Below, in pieces: positions 47,196 to 54,356 of a DNA stretch of 64,000 bases (positions are counted from its first letter, which is position 1; each line of letters opens with the position of its first letter). A program made the position numbers and the translations under genes. The notes below the pieces were generated by a model that made no database searches, was not told the DNA's origin, and saw only the letters and a program-made list of their open reading frames with translations. This stretch comes from Bacteroidota bacterium. GTDB taxonomy: Bacteria > Bacteroidota > Bacteroidia > UKL13-3. The DNA lies in the NCBI GenBank assembly GCA_027482225.1, contig JAIXWD010000014.1, positions 1-64,000 on the forward strand, written 5' to 3'.

Positions 47196-47537
47196 TTATA
47201 AAATGTCTAGAATAAGTTGAGGCGGCCTACCAATAACTGCCTTATTACCTTTAACTACAATTGGACGTTCTATAAGAATTGGATACTTTACCATTAATTC
47301 AATGCATTGTGCATCCGATAATTCTTTATTTTTAAATTCCTTAAAAACTTCTTCTTTCACCCTTATTATTTGTATGGGTTTTAGGTTAAGTATGGTTAGT
47401 AAGTTTTTGATATCTTTTTCTGTTGGGGTATCTTTAAGGTATTCAATAATTTTAACATCTTGATTTTGTTCTTTTAACAAAATCAAAGCCTCTCTACTTT
47501 TGCCACATCTGGGGTTATGAAATATTACAGTTTTCAT
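47196..47537 (-). CDS. ArsC-family protein (arsenate reductase-like)
   Basis: A 113-residue thioredoxin-fold protein of the ArsC/Spx family. The active-site Cys is C11 in HNPRCGKSREAL; the ArsC-type arginine is in ERPIVVKGNKAVIGRPPQ. Lacking a second CxxC, it would use glutathione- or mycothiol-like thiols, or act as an Spx-like factor. The ATG at 47537 is preferred to an upstream start at 47627, which would run through a GC-rich hairpin. No arsenic transporter or regulator is adjacent, so a role in arsenic resistance is uncertain. Confidence 0.82.
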   Translation of the reverse strand: MKTVIFHNPRCGKSREALILLKEQNQDVKIIEYLKDTPTEKDIKNLLTILNLKPIQIIRVKEEVFKEFKNKELSDAQCIELMVKYPILIERPIVVKGNKAVIGRPPQLILDIL

Positions 47538-47593: not shown

Positions 47594-47622
47594 AAAAAGC
47601 GAAACCCCGGATTTCTCCGGGG
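47594..47622 (-). terminator. GC-rich terminator-like hairpin upstream of the ArsC gene
   Basis: Minus-strand CCCCGG-AGAAAT-CCGGGG with a perfect 6-bp GC stem, followed by TTTCGC and five Ts. The T-run is not immediate, so termination could be partial or conditional. Confidence 0.6.
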
Positions 47623-47710
47623 CTCACCCTAGCCTATGAAACAAATTGCACCTCTACTCAAAGATGCAATATTTTAAATCAATTTATTTGCGTTTATTAA
47701 CTAAAAAAAC
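47594..47710 (-). ncRNA. Candidate structured RNA with own promoter and terminator-like hairpin
   Basis: Read on the minus strand, a perfect promoter is followed by an AT-rich leader, a first hairpin (TTGCATC pairing with GGTGCAA around a 10-base loop, 47668-47645), an unpaired stretch with GGCT-AGGGTG-AGCC, and a GC-rich hairpin CCCCGG/CCGGGG (47622-47605) ending in TTTCGCTTTTT. The GGCT/AGCC stem overlaps the GC-rich hairpin, so the two compete. No ORF fits. It is either an independent small RNA of about 115 bases or a riboswitch-like leader of the ArsC-like gene. Confidence 0.55.
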
Positions 47711-47716
47711 GAATAA

Positions 47717-47747
47717 CAAAGATATAATTAATAATTAGTCTTTCAAA
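47717..47747 (-). promoter_or_regulatory. Perfect Bacteroidota promoter driving the structured RNA
   Basis: On the minus strand TTTG (47747-47744), exactly 19 bases, then TATCTTTG (47724-47717). No protein start follows for about 180 bases. Confidence 0.8.
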
Positions 47748-47826: not shown

Positions 47827-50800
47827 TTATTTCACTTCACGTTTAGCTTTTAGCTTTAACTTCAAACCTTCAGATAGGTATAACATAACTGGTACTAAAA
47901 TTAGTGTTAAGAATGTTGCAAATGCCAATCCAAATATCATGGTCCATGATAATGGACCCCAAAATGCAACACTGTCTCCACCAAAAAATATTTTAGGATT
48001 ACCAGTTGATATTAACGAAGCAAAGTCGATGTTTAAACCTACCGCCAAAGGTACCAAACCTAACATGGTTGCAGTTGCTGTTAGTAAAACTGGAGTCATA
48101 CGTGTACGACCAGCATCAATAATAGCCTCTCTTAATGGGACACCGTCTTTTATCAAAATCTCAGTAAACTCAACCAATAAAATACCATTCCGCACTACAA
48201 TACCAGCCAAAGCAATAATACCTACACCGGTCATCATTACCGAAATTTCCATATTGAAAATGGTAAAGCCTAAAAACACACCAATCAAACTTAAGAGGAT
48301 TTCACTTAAAATGATTATTGGTTTTGATATTGAGTTGAACTGAGTTACCAAAATCAAGAAGATTAAACCAAATGAAATTAAAAGTGCGGCACCTAAGAAA
48401 GCACCTGTTTCTGCCTGCTCTTCTTGCTCGCCTCCCATTTTTGCAGTAACGCCTGTTGGGAAGTCGTATCTTTTAATTGCCTTCGCCATTTTACCAACAA
48501 TATCATTTGCATTATAACCGCTTAATACATTTGATGAAAGTGTAACAATAGGTTGGTCATCAAGACGCTTAATACCACCAAAAGTATTACCATATTTTAC
48601 AGATGCTACAGATGATAATGGTATTTGACGAATTTGACCGCCCATATTCATATCACGATAAGTAATCTTTAAATTCATGATGGCGTCTATGCTATTTCTT
48701 TGATTTTCTTTGTAACGCACTTGAATAGGGTACTCATCATTTGCATCTTTAAATTTACTAACCTCTTTACCAAATATAGCCGTACGTAATTCGCCTCCAA
48801 TTTGCGCTGTACTAATACCCTCGCGATTTGCACGCTCTCTGTCAATTACCACCATTAATTCTGGCTTATTACTTTGCACATCTGATTTTAACTCTTCTAC
48901 CCCCGGAAAAGCAAGCGAATCAAGATATCGTTTTATGTCGGCACTCACCTGCGTTAGCTGGTAAATATCATCGCCTTTAATTTCAATAGCAATAGGTTTA
49001 CCTGTTGGTGGTCCACTACTTTCTTGGTCAACAATTACCTCTGCACCAGGAATACCTTTGGTTGCTTCACGCACTAAATCTAAATATTTAGCTGTTGATT
49101 CTCCATTACGTTTACCAAACTCTACAAAAGCTACTGTTACTTTACCTAAGTGTGGTGTAGGACTAAAATTATATTCGAACTGCGAAGGATCATTTGCACC
49201 AACAGCTACGTTTGAAATGATAGACTCTACAATTGGATTATCGTTACCCACAACCTTAGTAACTCGTTCTTCTATAATTTGTGTGATAGAATCAGTGTAA
49301 GCAGCAGATGTACCTGTAGGTAAAGTAATGTAAGTATAAATAAAGTTTGGATCGGCTTTAGGAAAAAATACGACTTTAGGTTTTACGATAGCTACCAACA
49401 AAAATGTAAAAATAAATAACCCAAAAGTACCTACCAACAACCAAATTGGTCTGCGTTTTTGTAAACACCAATCAATAAATTCTTTGTAAAAATCCTGGAA
49501 ACGAGGCCAAATATTTTCTTGGAATTTTTGAATCCATTTCCATAATACAAATCGATTTAAAGAGTATAAACCAAACATGATAACAGCAAAATTACCTAAA
49601 CCAATATTACCTGATAGGTATGATAACAATGCAATAACACCAAACACTATCGCAGTAATTTTATAGCCTTTTTTATTCTCGCGGTTCTTTTGCTCTTCCT
49701 CATGTGTTTTCATAAAATCAACTGCAAAAACCGGATTGATGATATATGCCACAACTAAAGAAGCCAACAAAGTAACAATTAAAGTAATAGGTAAATAGAA
49801 CATAAATTTACCTATTACACCTTGCCAAAATGCAAGCGGTATAAATGGGGCAAGGGTTGTCATTGTTCCTGATAATACTGGTAAAAACACTTCCCCTGCT
49901 GCAAGTTTAGCAGCCTTTTTAATAGGCATTTTCCCATTTGCAAAAATACGGTGTGTATTTTCAACTACCACAATGGCATCATCAACAACAATACCTAAAG
50001 CTAATAAGAAAGAGAATAATACGATAAAATTTAACTTAAATCCGATAGCAGGAAAAACCATAAATGCAACCGCACATGATAATGGAACCGACATGGCAAC
50101 GAAAATGGCGTTTGTTGTTCCCATAAAGAACATTAGAATTACCGTTACCAATATAAAACCAATTATGATGGTATTAATCAAATCGTGTAGGGTAACGCGT
50201 GTTTTTTCTGATTGATCACCAGTGATAGTTACTTTTAAATCGGGAGGAAATTTCTCTTTACTTAGTTTGTCTGATATGTCTCTAATTTTATCAGATGCAG
50301 AAATCAAGTTTTCTCCACTACGTTTAATTACGTTTAAACTAATTACGTTTTTACCTTCTAAGCGCGCGTAGCTTTCTTTCTCTTCGTATGCGTCTTTGAT
50401 CTCTGCAATATCTTTTAAATAAACCACAGCTCCTGTTGAGCCACGCACAACAATATCACCAATTTTACTGGGATCTTTATATTCACCTTTTACACTAATA
50501 GCCCGCTTCAAACCATCCATATCAATCAAACCGCTACTAATGGTCATGTTTTCATATTTAACCGCATTTTCAATATCCATAAATGTGATATTGGCAACTT
50601 GCGCTTTGTACATATCAACATTAATTTGAATTTCACGCTCTAGTGCACCAACAAGTTTGGCTTCACTAATTTCCTTTAAACCTTCTATCTCATCTTGTAA
50701 ATCTTCTGCATAACGTTTTAATTTATCAAGAGGATAATCACCACTAACGTGTACTTGCATAATTGGCATTTGTGATACATCTATATCACGCACCTGTGGA

Positions 50801-51198
50801 TCTTCAGGTAAGTTATTAGGTAAATCGTTCTTCGCTTTATCTACCGCATCTTTTACCCGCTGCAAAGCCAAATCAACATTTTGATCGGTATTAAATTCAA
50901 CATTAATTACTGAAAAATCCTGAACTGAATTACTTTTAACTTTCTTTACACCAACAATGGTTTTAATCTGCTTTTCGATTTGTTTGGTTACCAACTGCTC
51001 CATATCCGTAGGTGATGTACCGGGATAGATGGTAGTAATTAGAATACTTGGAAACTTAACCTCAGGAAACTGTTCCTTAGGAAGTTTATTATATGAAAAC
51101 AATCCAGCAAGTGTGATGATAATAGTAATAATATAAATACTTGTTTTATTATCAATACTCCAGCTAGATGGTTTAAACTCTTTATTTGTATCATGCAT
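47827..51198 (-). CDS. RND efflux pump permease (HAE1/AcrB-like)
   Basis: An 1123-residue RND transporter. Key landmarks are the first helix (about 18-38), the pore domain VRDIDVSQMPIMQVHVSGDYP, the central helix pair with LALGIVVDDAIVVVENTHRI (proton-relay Asp pair) and the second half with a matching GIIALAGIVVRNGILLVEF. Between TM6 and TM7 (about 495-552) is an extra segment with two predicted helices (TAIVFGVIALLSYL, FAVIMFGLYSLNRF), absent from AcrB. It exports drugs, detergents or lipids by proton antiport with the adaptor and TolC genes in the same operon. It is the last gene of the operon; no strong terminator directly follows. Confidence 0.95.
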   Translation of the reverse strand: MHDTNKEFKPSSWSIDNKTSIYIITIIITLAGLFSYNKLPKEQFPEVKFPSILITTIYPGTSPTDMEQLVTKQIEKQIKTIVGVKKVKSNSVQDFSVINVEFNTDQNVDLALQRVKDAVDKAKNDLPNNLPEDPQVRDIDVSQMPIMQVHVSGDYPLDKLKRYAEDLQDEIEGLKEISEAKLVGALEREIQINVDMYKAQVANITFMDIENAVKYENMTISSGLIDMDGLKRAISVKGEYKDPSKIGDIVVRGSTGAVVYLKDIAEIKDAYEEKESYARLEGKNVISLNVIKRSGENLISASDKIRDISDKLSKEKFPPDLKVTITGDQSEKTRVTLHDLINTIIIGFILVTVILMFFMGTTNAIFVAMSVPLSCAVAFMVFPAIGFKLNFIVLFSFLLALGIVVDDAIVVVENTHRIFANGKMPIKKAAKLAAGEVFLPVLSGTMTTLAPFIPLAFWQGVIGKFMFYLPITLIVTLLASLVVAYIINPVFAVDFMKTHEEEQKNRENKKGYKITAIVFGVIALLSYLSGNIGLGNFAVIMFGLYSLNRFVLWKWIQKFQENIWPRFQDFYKEFIDWCLQKRRPIWLLVGTFGLFIFTFLLVAIVKPKVVFFPKADPNFIYTYITLPTGTSAAYTDSITQIIEERVTKVVGNDNPIVESIISNVAVGANDPSQFEYNFSPTPHLGKVTVAFVEFGKRNGESTAKYLDLVREATKGIPGAEVIVDQESSGPPTGKPIAIEIKGDDIYQLTQVSADIKRYLDSLAFPGVEELKSDVQSNKPELMVVIDRERANREGISTAQIGGELRTAIFGKEVSKFKDANDEYPIQVRYKENQRNSIDAIMNLKITYRDMNMGGQIRQIPLSSVASVKYGNTFGGIKRLDDQPIVTLSSNVLSGYNANDIVGKMAKAIKRYDFPTGVTAKMGGEQEEQAETGAFLGAALLISFGLIFLILVTQFNSISKPIIILSEILLSLIGVFLGFTIFNMEISVMMTGVGIIALAGIVVRNGILLVEFTEILIKDGVPLREAIIDAGRTRMTPVLLTATATMLGLVPLAVGLNIDFASLISTGNPKIFFGGDSVAFWGPLSWTMIFGLAFATFLTLILVPVMLYLSEGLKLKLKAKREVK

Positions 51199-51236: not shown

Positions 51237-52376
51237 CTAAAATTTAATTGCTTGTCCATCTGTTAAATCTTGAAAACCTGTGGTAATTAAATGGTCTCCT
51301 TCATTTAATCCGCTTAAAATTTCGGCACTTGTACCATAAGTTTTACCAACTGTTATTGTAACTTTTTTGGCTATGGTTTCATTCTTCAGGTTTTTGGTTG
51401 ATATGTATACTAATTTCTCTCCATCTATTTCTTGGATTGTATTAATTGGAACAACCAATGCATTTTTGTTTTCATAGTCAACAATTTTTAACTCTGCAAC
51501 CATATTGGGATGTAAATCATTATCATTTGGCAAAGCTACTTCTACATTAAATGTACGTGTTAATGCATTAATTGATTTTGATGAATAAGTTACAGTTGCT
51601 TTAACTGATTTATTAATATCAGGGAAATTAATTAATACTGAATTTCCTTGCTTCACAATATTTGCATACGACTCAGATAAATCTGCTTTAATTTTTAAAG
51701 CAGCAGGATTAACCACACTAACTGCAGGTAATCCAGGGGCAACACCTTGGCCAACTTTAATACTCACTAAATCAACCGTACCACTGTATTCTGACTTGAT
51801 TAAATACATAACCAAATTTTCTTTTGCAGAAGCAATTTGTTTTTCAATACTTTCTTTTTGATTTTTAGCTTGCAAAAACTCTATTTCGCTACCTACTTTT
51901 TGCTCCCACAATGTCTTTCGTTTTTCGTAAACTGTGTTAGCCAATTCTAATCCTTTTCTTAATGTTTCAATTTGAGCTTTTACCACATCTGCATCCAACT
52001 CAACCAACACTTGACCAGCAGAAACTTTATCGCCAGCTTTTACATTAACACGTTTAACTACAGCTGGTAGCTTGGCACTGTAAGTAATATTTTCGTCACC
52101 ATCAACACGGCCCTGCACATCAACTGCATGTAAAAATACTTGTTTGGTTACTGCAGCTACTGCCACAATTTTTATACGGCTATTCTCTGCATTTGTAGTA
52201 TCTCCCATTGTTGCTATTTCTTCTTGTAACGAGGCAATTTGGGAGGCAATTTCTGTTTGTTGCGTTTTTAATTTTTCAAGTTCTGCTTTCTTGGATTCAA
52301 TATTATTTTCACCACCGCAAGATGCCAACAAAGCAACTACACCTGTTGCTAATAAAATTGTTTTTATGTTATTCAT
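51237..52376 (-). CDS. RND efflux periplasmic adaptor (MFP) lipoprotein
   Basis: A 379-residue membrane-fusion protein with lipobox LLASC-G. A short N-terminal coiled coil (about 26-58) is followed by a barrel-sandwich/lipoyl half (VKRVNVKAGDKVSAGQVLVELDADV), an alpha-hairpin (about 135-180), the second lipoyl half (SEYSGTVDLVSIKVGQGV), a beta-barrel domain and the membrane-proximal domain ending TTGFQDLTDGQAIKF. It bridges the RND pump and TolC. It lies 38 bases before the permease gene and 14 after TolC. Confidence 0.94.
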   Translation of the reverse strand: MNNIKTILLATGVVALLASCGGENNIESKKAELEKLKTQQTEIASQIASLQEEIATMGDTTNAENSRIKIVAVAAVTKQVFLHAVDVQGRVDGDENITYSAKLPAVVKRVNVKAGDKVSAGQVLVELDADVVKAQIETLRKGLELANTVYEKRKTLWEQKVGSEIEFLQAKNQKESIEKQIASAKENLVMYLIKSEYSGTVDLVSIKVGQGVAPGLPAVSVVNPAALKIKADLSESYANIVKQGNSVLINFPDINKSVKATVTYSSKSINALTRTFNVEVALPNDNDLHPNMVAELKIVDYENKNALVVPINTIQEIDGEKLVYISTKNLKNETIAKKVTITVGKTYGTSAEILSGLNEGDHLITTGFQDLTDGQAIKF

Positions 52377-52390
52377 ATGTGTTGTTATTA

Positions 52391-53731
52391 TTATTTATTT
52401 AAATCTCCTAAGGCTTTACGTAAATCAAGTTGTGCAACAAAATAATCGTACATGGTATTTAAGTATGATGCACGAGCATTTTCTAAATCTTTTTGAGCAT
52501 TTGTTAGTTCTAAACTTGATGTTAAACCGTTTTTAAACTTTAATTCAGTTCTATTATAAATGTCTTGAGCAAGATCTAGGTTCTTTTTTTGCACTACTAA
52601 TTGCTTTGCAGAAAGGTCAAATGCAGTTCTGGCAATAAATACTTCCTGCTCTATTAAATTACTTAGCATCTTTTTATCGTTCTCGGCTTTTTTAATGTTT
52701 ATGGATGCTTGTTGAATTTGAGCTGATTTCTTAAATCCATCAAAAATCGGAATATTAAGATTTAAACCCCATAATGAACCTCCAAACCATTCTTTACCTA
52801 ATTCGTTAAAGTTTTGACCGAAAGAGTTTTGTTGGGTTGAAAACACACCAACTAAACTTGGTGCATAGCCAAATTGGTATCTTCTTTTATCTAATGTATT
52901 TAAAGCAATAGATTGATTAACTAATTGATATTCTAACCTGTTATTGTAATCTACTTTTGAAGATAAAACAGTAGTTTTTGATGACTCGTACATCTTCGTT
53001 AAATCATCAGTTAACTCAATATTTTCGTTAAAATCTAAACCCAATTGAATTTTAAGAACCATCATCAATGATTTTTGTTGATCGATTAATTTATCACGTT
53101 GTATTTCTAGAGATGAGTATTGTAAGTTAACCTTATCAAAATCAACCCTATCTAAAAAACCATTTTGAACCAACTTTTCTAAATCGTACTTAGTTTTACC
53201 CAAAGCATCCATGTTGGCATTTAGCATGTTTAATGAGGTTTGTGCAAGCAAGATTCCGTAATAGGTTTTACTAACTGCAACTTCTGTTTCTGCTTCAGTG
53301 CGTTTAAGATTAATTTTAGCCAATTGAACATATTCCTTTGATGCTTTAACTCCCATTAAAAATCCACCATCGAAAAGTAACTGGGTTGCTGCAATACTTC
53401 CTGTAGCCGAAAATGGAATTCCAAAACGAATAATTTGACGCTGTCCACCAAATTCTATTACACTAGATGGCACTACGATGTAATTATTGAAACCACCACT
53501 TGCATTCACATTTGGTAATCCAGATGCTAAAACCTCTTTTACTTTTTTCTCAGCAGCCAATACATCAAGTGCACTATTTTTTAGTGTACCGTTATACTTT
53601 TTAGCGTGTGCAACTGCGTCTTGTAAAGAAAACTTTTTTGTCTCGCTTTGTTGTTGTGCACTTGTGATAAATGCAGTCCAAAAGAACAGCATAAATAAAT
53701 TAGTGTATTTCATTGTCTTAAATATGTTCAT
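52391..53731 (-). CDS. TolC-family outer-membrane efflux protein
   Basis: A 446-residue TolC-like channel. Two repeats of long helices and barrel strands can be seen (VAHAKKYNGTLKNSALDVLAAEKKVKEVLA and a matching SLELTNAQKDLENARASYLNTMYDYFVAQLDLRKALG). The start is uncertain: 53767 (overlapping TetR), 53731 or 53713 (MKYTNLFMLFFWTAFITSAQ, the best signal peptide). 53731 is listed. Two copies of aagacaATG lie at 53731 and 53713. It completes the tripartite pump. Confidence 0.9.
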   Translation of the reverse strand: MNIFKTMKYTNLFMLFFWTAFITSAQQQSETKKFSLQDAVAHAKKYNGTLKNSALDVLAAEKKVKEVLASGLPNVNASGGFNNYIVVPSSVIEFGGQRQIIRFGIPFSATGSIAATQLLFDGGFLMGVKASKEYVQLAKINLKRTEAETEVAVSKTYYGILLAQTSLNMLNANMDALGKTKYDLEKLVQNGFLDRVDFDKVNLQYSSLEIQRDKLIDQQKSLMMVLKIQLGLDFNENIELTDDLTKMYESSKTTVLSSKVDYNNRLEYQLVNQSIALNTLDKRRYQFGYAPSLVGVFSTQQNSFGQNFNELGKEWFGGSLWGLNLNIPIFDGFKKSAQIQQASINIKKAENDKKMLSNLIEQEVFIARTAFDLSAKQLVVQKKNLDLAQDIYNRTELKFKNGLTSSLELTNAQKDLENARASYLNTMYDYFVAQLDLRKALGDLNK

Positions 53732-53738
53732 TGTCTTA

Positions 53739-54356
53739 TTAATTTTTTGTAGCTGATAATTTTTCATCTAATAACTCAATACCTTTGGCAGTACAAATAC
53801 TGCGTAAATGGTATTTTACAATTTCTAAATGCATCACCTTAATGTCCATTTCCTCTTTATCATAATTATCTGGATTGATTAAAAAACTAACCAAATAAAT
53901 ATAAATCCTACTCACTACCTCTGCATCCAAATCCTTTCGGTATAATCCTTTTTTAATTCCAAACAAAATGTTATCATGTATCAATTTTCTTATAAAACTT
54001 ATCCTGTCGGCCTCCAGTTTATCCCAAGCACTTTTAAAATACTTTTTTAAATCAAACATGCTGCTGGGGTTTATATGCCTGATGGCGGAATTAATTTGAT
54101 CAGAAATTTGTAGCAATACACTTATCGCATCCAATTCCTTGTTATCAACCACATTACTACATAGCATGTTCATGTTAGCCAAATAATGCGCCACGCATTG
54201 GTTAACCAAATCATTTTTATCTGTAAAAAACTGATAAAGTGTTTTCTTAGATACACCCAGTTCTCGCGCAACGTCATCCATGGTTATGCTTTTAAAACCA
54301 TAACGCATAAAAAGCTGCTCAGCTTCTGTTAAAATTTTATCTTTAATTTCAGTCAT
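53739..54356 (-). CDS. TetR/AcrR-family repressor of the efflux operon
   Basis: A 205-residue regulator. The N-terminal helix-turn-helix ITMDDVARELGVSKKTLYQFFTDKNDLV (about 21-48) is typical of TetR. The C-terminal ligand-binding domain is variable, with no assignable ligand. It is the first gene of the operon, followed by TolC, adaptor and permease genes. It should repress the whole operon through the inverted repeat upstream and be released by an exported compound. Confidence 0.93.
   Translation of the reverse strand: MTEIKDKILTEAEQLFMRYGFKSITMDDVARELGVSKKTLYQFFTDKNDLVNQCVAHYLANMNMLCSNVVDNKELDAISVLLQISDQINSAIRHINPSSMFDLKKYFKSAWDKLEADRISFIRKLIHDNILFGIKKGLYRKDLDAEVVSRIYIYLVSFLINPDNYDKEEMDIKVMHLEIVKYHLRSICTAKGIELLDEKLSATKN

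Follow-up and report, generated by a model that had tools for sequence, protein, structure and literature searches.

A candidate multi-copy small RNA family behind an RND efflux operon in one family of uncultured Bacteroidota

The locus and its elements

The window, which is the whole stretch of 64,000 nucleotides analysed from contig JAIXWD010000014.1 of a Bacteroidota bacterium, carries on its minus strand a pump operon with the gene order tetR, tolC-like, hlyD-like and RND, followed by an ArsC-family gene (Table 1). Between the last two genes, an earlier note on this DNA had described a promoter of the form TTTG-N19-TATCTTTG, a 5' hairpin and a GC-rich stem, and all three were recovered at that place on the minus strand. 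TTTG lies at 47747-47744 and, after a spacer of 19 nucleotides, TATCTTTG at 47724-47717; transcription is predicted from the sequence to start near 47711. In the window copy, hairpin 1 has the arms TTGCATC and GGTGCAA, the linker behind it is largely unpaired in the centroid fold, and the terminator consists of a CCCCGG/CCGGGG stem followed by TTTCGCTTTTT, at about 47629-47594. The distance from the promoter to the U run is about 118 nt, and the conserved core is about 77 nt long.

Table 1. Genes and RNA elements at the locus, in coordinates of the window.
Feature	Position	Strand	Basis or remark
TetR-type regulator, pump operon	53739-54356	-	
TolC-like outer membrane protein, pump operon	52391-53767	-	
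HlyD-type membrane-fusion protein, pump operon	51237-52376	-	operon part 51237..54356
RND efflux transporter gene, AcrB/AcrD/AcrF family	47827..51198	-	Pfam PF00873, E 7e-191
Putative promoter, Bacteroidota-type, TTTG-N19-TATCTTTG	47717..47747	-	sequence; same-genus recurrence
5' leader of the predicted transcript, A/T-rich, poorly conserved, without consistent fold	47671..47711	-	
Hairpin 1, UUGCAUCUUUGAGUAGAGGUGCAA	47646..47669	-	covarying stem, conserved apical GRGUAGA
Linker UUUGUUUCAUAGGCUA, unpaired, near-invariant, proposed seed	47630..47645	-	copy comparison; centroid fold
Intrinsic terminator, GC-rich hairpin GGGUGAGCCCCGGAGAAAUCCGGGGUUUCGC and U run	47594..47629	-	fold, terminator search
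ArsC-family gene, downstream of the RNA	47196..47537	-	Pfam PF03960

The predicted transcript of 127 nt folds with an energy of -36.3 kcal/mol, compared with -23.7 +/- 3.4 kcal/mol in dinucleotide shuffles (z = -3.7), and none of the 200 shuffles was equally stable. Two terminator-like sites were found, while the shuffles gave a mean of 0.2. The promoter motif alone is weak evidence, since TTG-N19-TAnnTTTG occurs four times in the window with 2.75 occurrences expected, which is not above chance. In six of the nine same-genus genomes TTG-N18-21-TAnnTTTG recurs about 90-100 nt before the TAGAGG motif, a position equivalent to that in the window. A leader hairpin at the 5' end was not consistent when compared within the genus.

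No true match was obtained when Rfam was scanned with the whole window at the gathering score and with the region at E values up to 10, and the loci of eight relatives gave tRNAs only. The Pseudomonas rnk leader (RF01772) gave the best Rfam score of the region, 21.1 bits, where the gathering score is 55; the likeness comes from the terminator hairpin and U run and is a chance resemblance of terminators. The RNA family is previously uncatalogued.

Distribution and conservation

In the host genome there is one copy of the 151-bp stretch. By DNA similarity it was found in 25 of 58 relatives, namely in all nine genomes of the genus that were compared and in many of the family, and it was absent from the other families of the class that were sampled. 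A covariance model covering hairpin and linker, a home-made model whose E-values are rough, located 69 copies of the RNA, in 50 of the 64 genomes that represent the host's family. Over 395 genomes of the class, no convincing match was obtained outside this family; weak matches there (E 2.6e-4 to 1e-3; L069-L075) were rejected as chance or coding sequence, having neither a terminator nor a conserved context. The viral contigs searched gave no match to the RNA. The order, as sampled, contains the host's family alone, and families and genera are designated by numbered handles. Among the carriers is a genome matching Bacteroidetes bacterium UKL13-3 (CP012155), a member of an Upper Klamath Lake co-culture, with two copies of the RNA near 2,690,590-2,690,840, and the named carrier records are mainly metagenome-assembled Bacteroidetes/Bacteroidia genomes. 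The label "freshwater" comes from the paper describing UKL13-3 (PMC5248499) and from the sample names that the records give, which is not a systematic check. Paralogs are present at up to five copies per genome, with a single copy in the genome of the window; the fifth copy in G353 (L265) was encountered during the search for target sites.

Alignment of the copies shows a sharply bounded conserved core, composed of the hairpin, the unpaired UUUGUUUCAUAGGCUA and a GC-rich terminator that varies between genera. The hairpin loop is near-invariant, reading GAGUAGA or GGGUAGA (GRGUAGA). The most invariant part of the RNA is the single-stranded linker: the unpaired stretch GUUUCAUAGGCUA is near-invariant, and its core GUUUCAUA is identical in 21 of 21 diverse copies, including paralogs that share only the loop besides. 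The terminator keeps its fold in every copy while its sequence varies widely. An intramolecular pseudoknot between loop and linker was considered and found not to be conserved.

Within a set of close copies, three of the seven stem pairs have changed on both sides with pairing kept. Across 35 distinct hairpins the arms pair with their own partners at a mean of -9.4 kcal/mol, compared with -5.5 kcal/mol for mixed arms, and in an arm-shuffling test, which ignores relatedness, none of 5000 permutations reached the observed pairing energy. The stems of unlinked paralogs are wholly different yet paired (CUUGGAAGG/CCUUUCAAG, CCUGAAAAG/CUUUUCAGG and GGCUUGGCA/UGCCAGGCU), and it is these mutually unrelated stems that carry the case for covariation despite the relatedness-blind permutation. 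Conservation and covariation across the copies, with stem sequences replaced and pairing kept, bear out the proposal that the locus encodes a structured RNA. Of the two mutually exclusive stems proposed at the same time, the GGCT/AGCC stem is present in the window copy but is not a conserved feature: among the copies with an intact GGCTA, only nine have AGCC within the next 14 nt.

Short open frames are present in the window copy, on the minus strand (...IASLSRGAICFIG) and on the plus strand (MKQIAPLLKDAIF), so that a short protein-coding gene was considered. One-base length differences between the copies and the wholesale replacement of stems break both frames; we therefore conclude that no peptide is encoded and give the coding explanation a negligible probability.

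Genomic context

Using the pump protein of the window in tblastn searches, we found that in 44 of the 54 usable copies the RND pump gene has the same orientation as the RNA and ends 39-522 nt before its loop; nine copies were unlinked and one lay at a contig edge. ArsC was found downstream in a third of the copies (18/54); the genes otherwise found there include those for an ABC transporter ATPase, an ABC-F-like protein and an S8 peptidase. Because of these counts, the conserved partner of the RNA is the upstream pump gene and not the downstream gene.

This bears directly on the suggestion of the earlier note that the RNA is a riboswitch or attenuator controlling the ArsC-like gene. The placement of the terminator about 60 nt before this gene in the window would suit such a role, as would the 18 copies with ArsC downstream. 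However, most copies are followed by other genes, in L009 even by an antisense neighbor, the alternative stem is confined to a minority of copies, Rfam gave no riboswitch match, and the existence of unlinked copies and of double and triple tandem copies weakens this reading further. Control of ArsC is thus largely refuted and, in our assessment, very improbable.

Tandem arrays of two or three copies stand behind the pump gene at L010, L014, L095, L097, L110 and L118. In the triple arrays at L095:2638-2991 and L110:3855-4216, each RNA has its own terminator. The nine unlinked copies (L021, L027, L077-L079, L082, L099, L165 and L265) include one that directly follows a same-strand tRNA gene (L165:2016 and 2113-2185) and a second with tRNA genes in its locus (L099); these tRNA neighbors hint at how the copies have spread.

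In six of the nine unlinked copies a TAnnTTTG box is found 27-28 nt before GTAGA, ending about 20 nt before it and thus directly at the hairpin. Transcription would therefore start at the foot of the hairpin, implying that these copies are discrete transcripts of 75-80 nt made up of hairpin, linker and terminator. The evidence thus favors the other option raised in the earlier note, a free small RNA, for which the note gave about 115 nt, close to the 118 nt or so in the window; the unlinked paralogs are shorter. Promoter, conserved structured body, terminator and lack of coding capacity, the features of a bacterial sRNA, were all found, as far as sequence can tell, and we consider it very likely that the RNA is a discrete structured sRNA.

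The pump linkage also allows a simpler explanation, namely that the RNA is a cis-acting element of the 3' UTR, a conserved terminator and stabilizer of the pump mRNA that has no role in trans. It accords with the 44 copies behind the pump gene, which in many genera lie 39-66 nt from the stop codon, and with the strong terminator that ends all copies. In g2, g5 and g7, where the first copy starts about 20-40 nt past the pump stop codon, this copy may indeed be merely 3' UTR or may be released from the pump mRNA. Such an element does not account for unlinked paralogs whose hairpin is directly preceded by a promoter box, for a separate terminator in each tandem copy or for the putative promoters of several same-genus copies, and a terminator has no need of an invariant unpaired 13-mer. 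We regard a purely cis-acting element as quite improbable.

A small RNA directly behind an operon and having the operon's terminator in common, as here, is familiar from Proteobacteria, where CpxQ and OppZ are 3' UTR-derived, envelope-linked sRNAs. We know of no sequence relation between the new RNA and CpxQ or OppZ, and Hfq-dependence is not expected.

Possible mode of action

The complement of the linker, UAGCCUAUGAAACAAA, contains AUGAAA, and start contexts of the form AUGAAAC could base-pair with the unpaired strand; UAUGAAAC, the complement of the core GUUUCAUA, is itself a start-codon context. In Bacteroidota, a phylum without Shine-Dalgarno initiation, GibS and the FopS family are translational repressors that bind mRNAs around the start codon (PMC7366714, PMC11697453). 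The Rfam consensus of GibS (RF04182) begins with GUGUUUUUCAUAGUAUUAG, which has UUUCAUAG in common with the linker UUUGUUUCAUAGGCUA. The region scored 19.3 bits (E 1.8), below the gathering score of 115, and the Rfam alignment does not superpose the two UUUCAUAG stretches, so that no homology is shown. Like RNAs of the GibS/FopS type, the new RNA has UUUCAUAG in an unpaired stretch that complements start contexts reading AUGAAA, but it does not have their layout of a seed in an unstructured 5' end followed by a terminator, since its linker lies 3' of the covarying hairpin.

The FopS sRNAs of Bacteroides thetaiotaomicron (PMC11697453) are likewise multi-copy paralogs with a Rho-independent terminator; one FopS copy is derived from a 3' UTR, and the host encodes an RRM protein in both cases. 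Their conserved unpaired seed has been shown to act near start codons, a role that is proposed for the linker of the new RNA, and it is located at the single-stranded 5' end, whereas in the new RNA the covarying hairpin with its conserved loop comes first, followed by the linker and then the terminator. Moreover, FopS is tied to polysaccharide loci and the new RNA to an efflux pump, in a different taxon and without a sequence match in Rfam.

Since the unpaired, invariant linker complements the start context and GibS and FopS provide a precedent, we favor a trans-acting sRNA directed at start codons. The commonest gene copy follows the RND-TolC-HlyD-TetR operon, in its 3' UTR or in the intergenic space, and ends in the intrinsic terminator; its expression may be coupled to that of the operon. 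The transcript would present the GRGUAGA loop on the covarying hairpin, followed by the single-stranded linker UUUGUUUCAUAGGCUA and, last, the terminator. The linker would then act as a seed that pairs in trans with translation start regions of mRNAs and keeps translation from initiating, in the manner of GibS and FopS in Bacteroides, possibly with an RRM protein of RbpB's kind as a partner. A single small RRM protein was identified in the host (L338, G000:C7:426908-427120); it has a frame of 134 codons and an RG/GGY-rich tail and is a possible partner of the sRNA. Overall, we judge it reasonably probable that the RNA represents a new family of trans-acting, multi-copy, start-codon-directed sRNAs in one family of uncultured Bacteroidota; for start-codon pairing as the main mode of action, the balance tips modestly in favor.

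The weak point of the start-codon reading is that target searches gave no candidate and that a pure seed does not explain the conservation of the GRGUAGA loop. In the host genome, anti-seed 9-mers occurred 18 times, compared with 23 for the reversed control, and no enriched or conserved target sites were found with 9-mer, 12-mer, 14-mer or 16-mer anti-seed patterns. The recurrent 14-mer sites with one mismatch that relatives contain were not shared start sites; most of them fell within genes or lay antisense to them. No strong pairing that would indicate autoregulation of the own operon was observed at the tetR, tolC, hlyD and RND starts. The site with the best energy (L356, -21.7) was rejected as a target, being antisense to a coding gene.

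The main rival is docking of a protein by loop and linker. The GRGUAGA loop and the GUUUCAUAGGCUA linker would form a recognition site, the RNA would sequester the protein or be stabilized by it, and multiple copies would raise the dose. The invariance of loop and linker across paralogs with unrelated stems, the multi-copy and tandem arrangement, the RRM protein encoded by the host and the lack of enrichment of pairing sites all point in this direction. Against it, the invariant core of the linker is the exact complement of a start-codon context, the linker has a stretch in common with the consensus of a known sRNA whose seed is directed at start codons, and no protein partner is genetically linked. 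We consider protein binding unlikely. More speculatively, the hairpin with its GRGUAGA loop and the invariant GUUUCAUAGGCUA strand might form a joint docking site, for a protein or for a protein plus a start codon, and the RNA might have multiplied from the pump-linked copy into a network of pump-coupled riboregulators, which would constitute a new class of regulatory RNA; we hold this to be possible, if doubtful.

Start-codon pairing, the mode of action that we prefer, has a built-in natural experiment. In a subclade of g5 (L068, L158, L159, L160 and L162; genomes G033, G435, G436, G438 and G439) the linker reads UUGUUUCAUAUACUA and the loop GGGUAAA. If the linker pairs with its targets, the start regions should read UAGCCUAUGAAAC in other genera and UAGUAUAUGAAAC in the g5 subclade.

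Few Bacteroidota sRNAs have been characterized, mostly from gut Bacteroides. If an independent covarying family in environmental Bacteroidota has a seed-like strand with UUUCAUAG, this would suggest that sRNAs aimed at start codons are a phylum-wide solution in the absence of Shine-Dalgarno sequences. Through the family, a connection between multidrug efflux and post-transcriptional control also becomes testable, and its covariance model can be included in RNA libraries.

Divergent copies

In G006, a genome of the same genus, the copy at L006:1567-1600 has the linker UUGUUUUAUAGCCUA and an altered -7 box, while the pump and ArsC genes are intact, and this copy looks decayed. In g13, where the RNA is absent according to the model, a small hairpin with GGUAA in its loop is located behind the pump gene (L310:2992-3110 and L311:2992-3110). 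Its stem is CAGAG/CUCUG in one case and CAGGG/CCCUG in the other, followed by UUGUUUCUCAUAUAAUAGG and a terminator, and the element may be this RNA in a diverged form.
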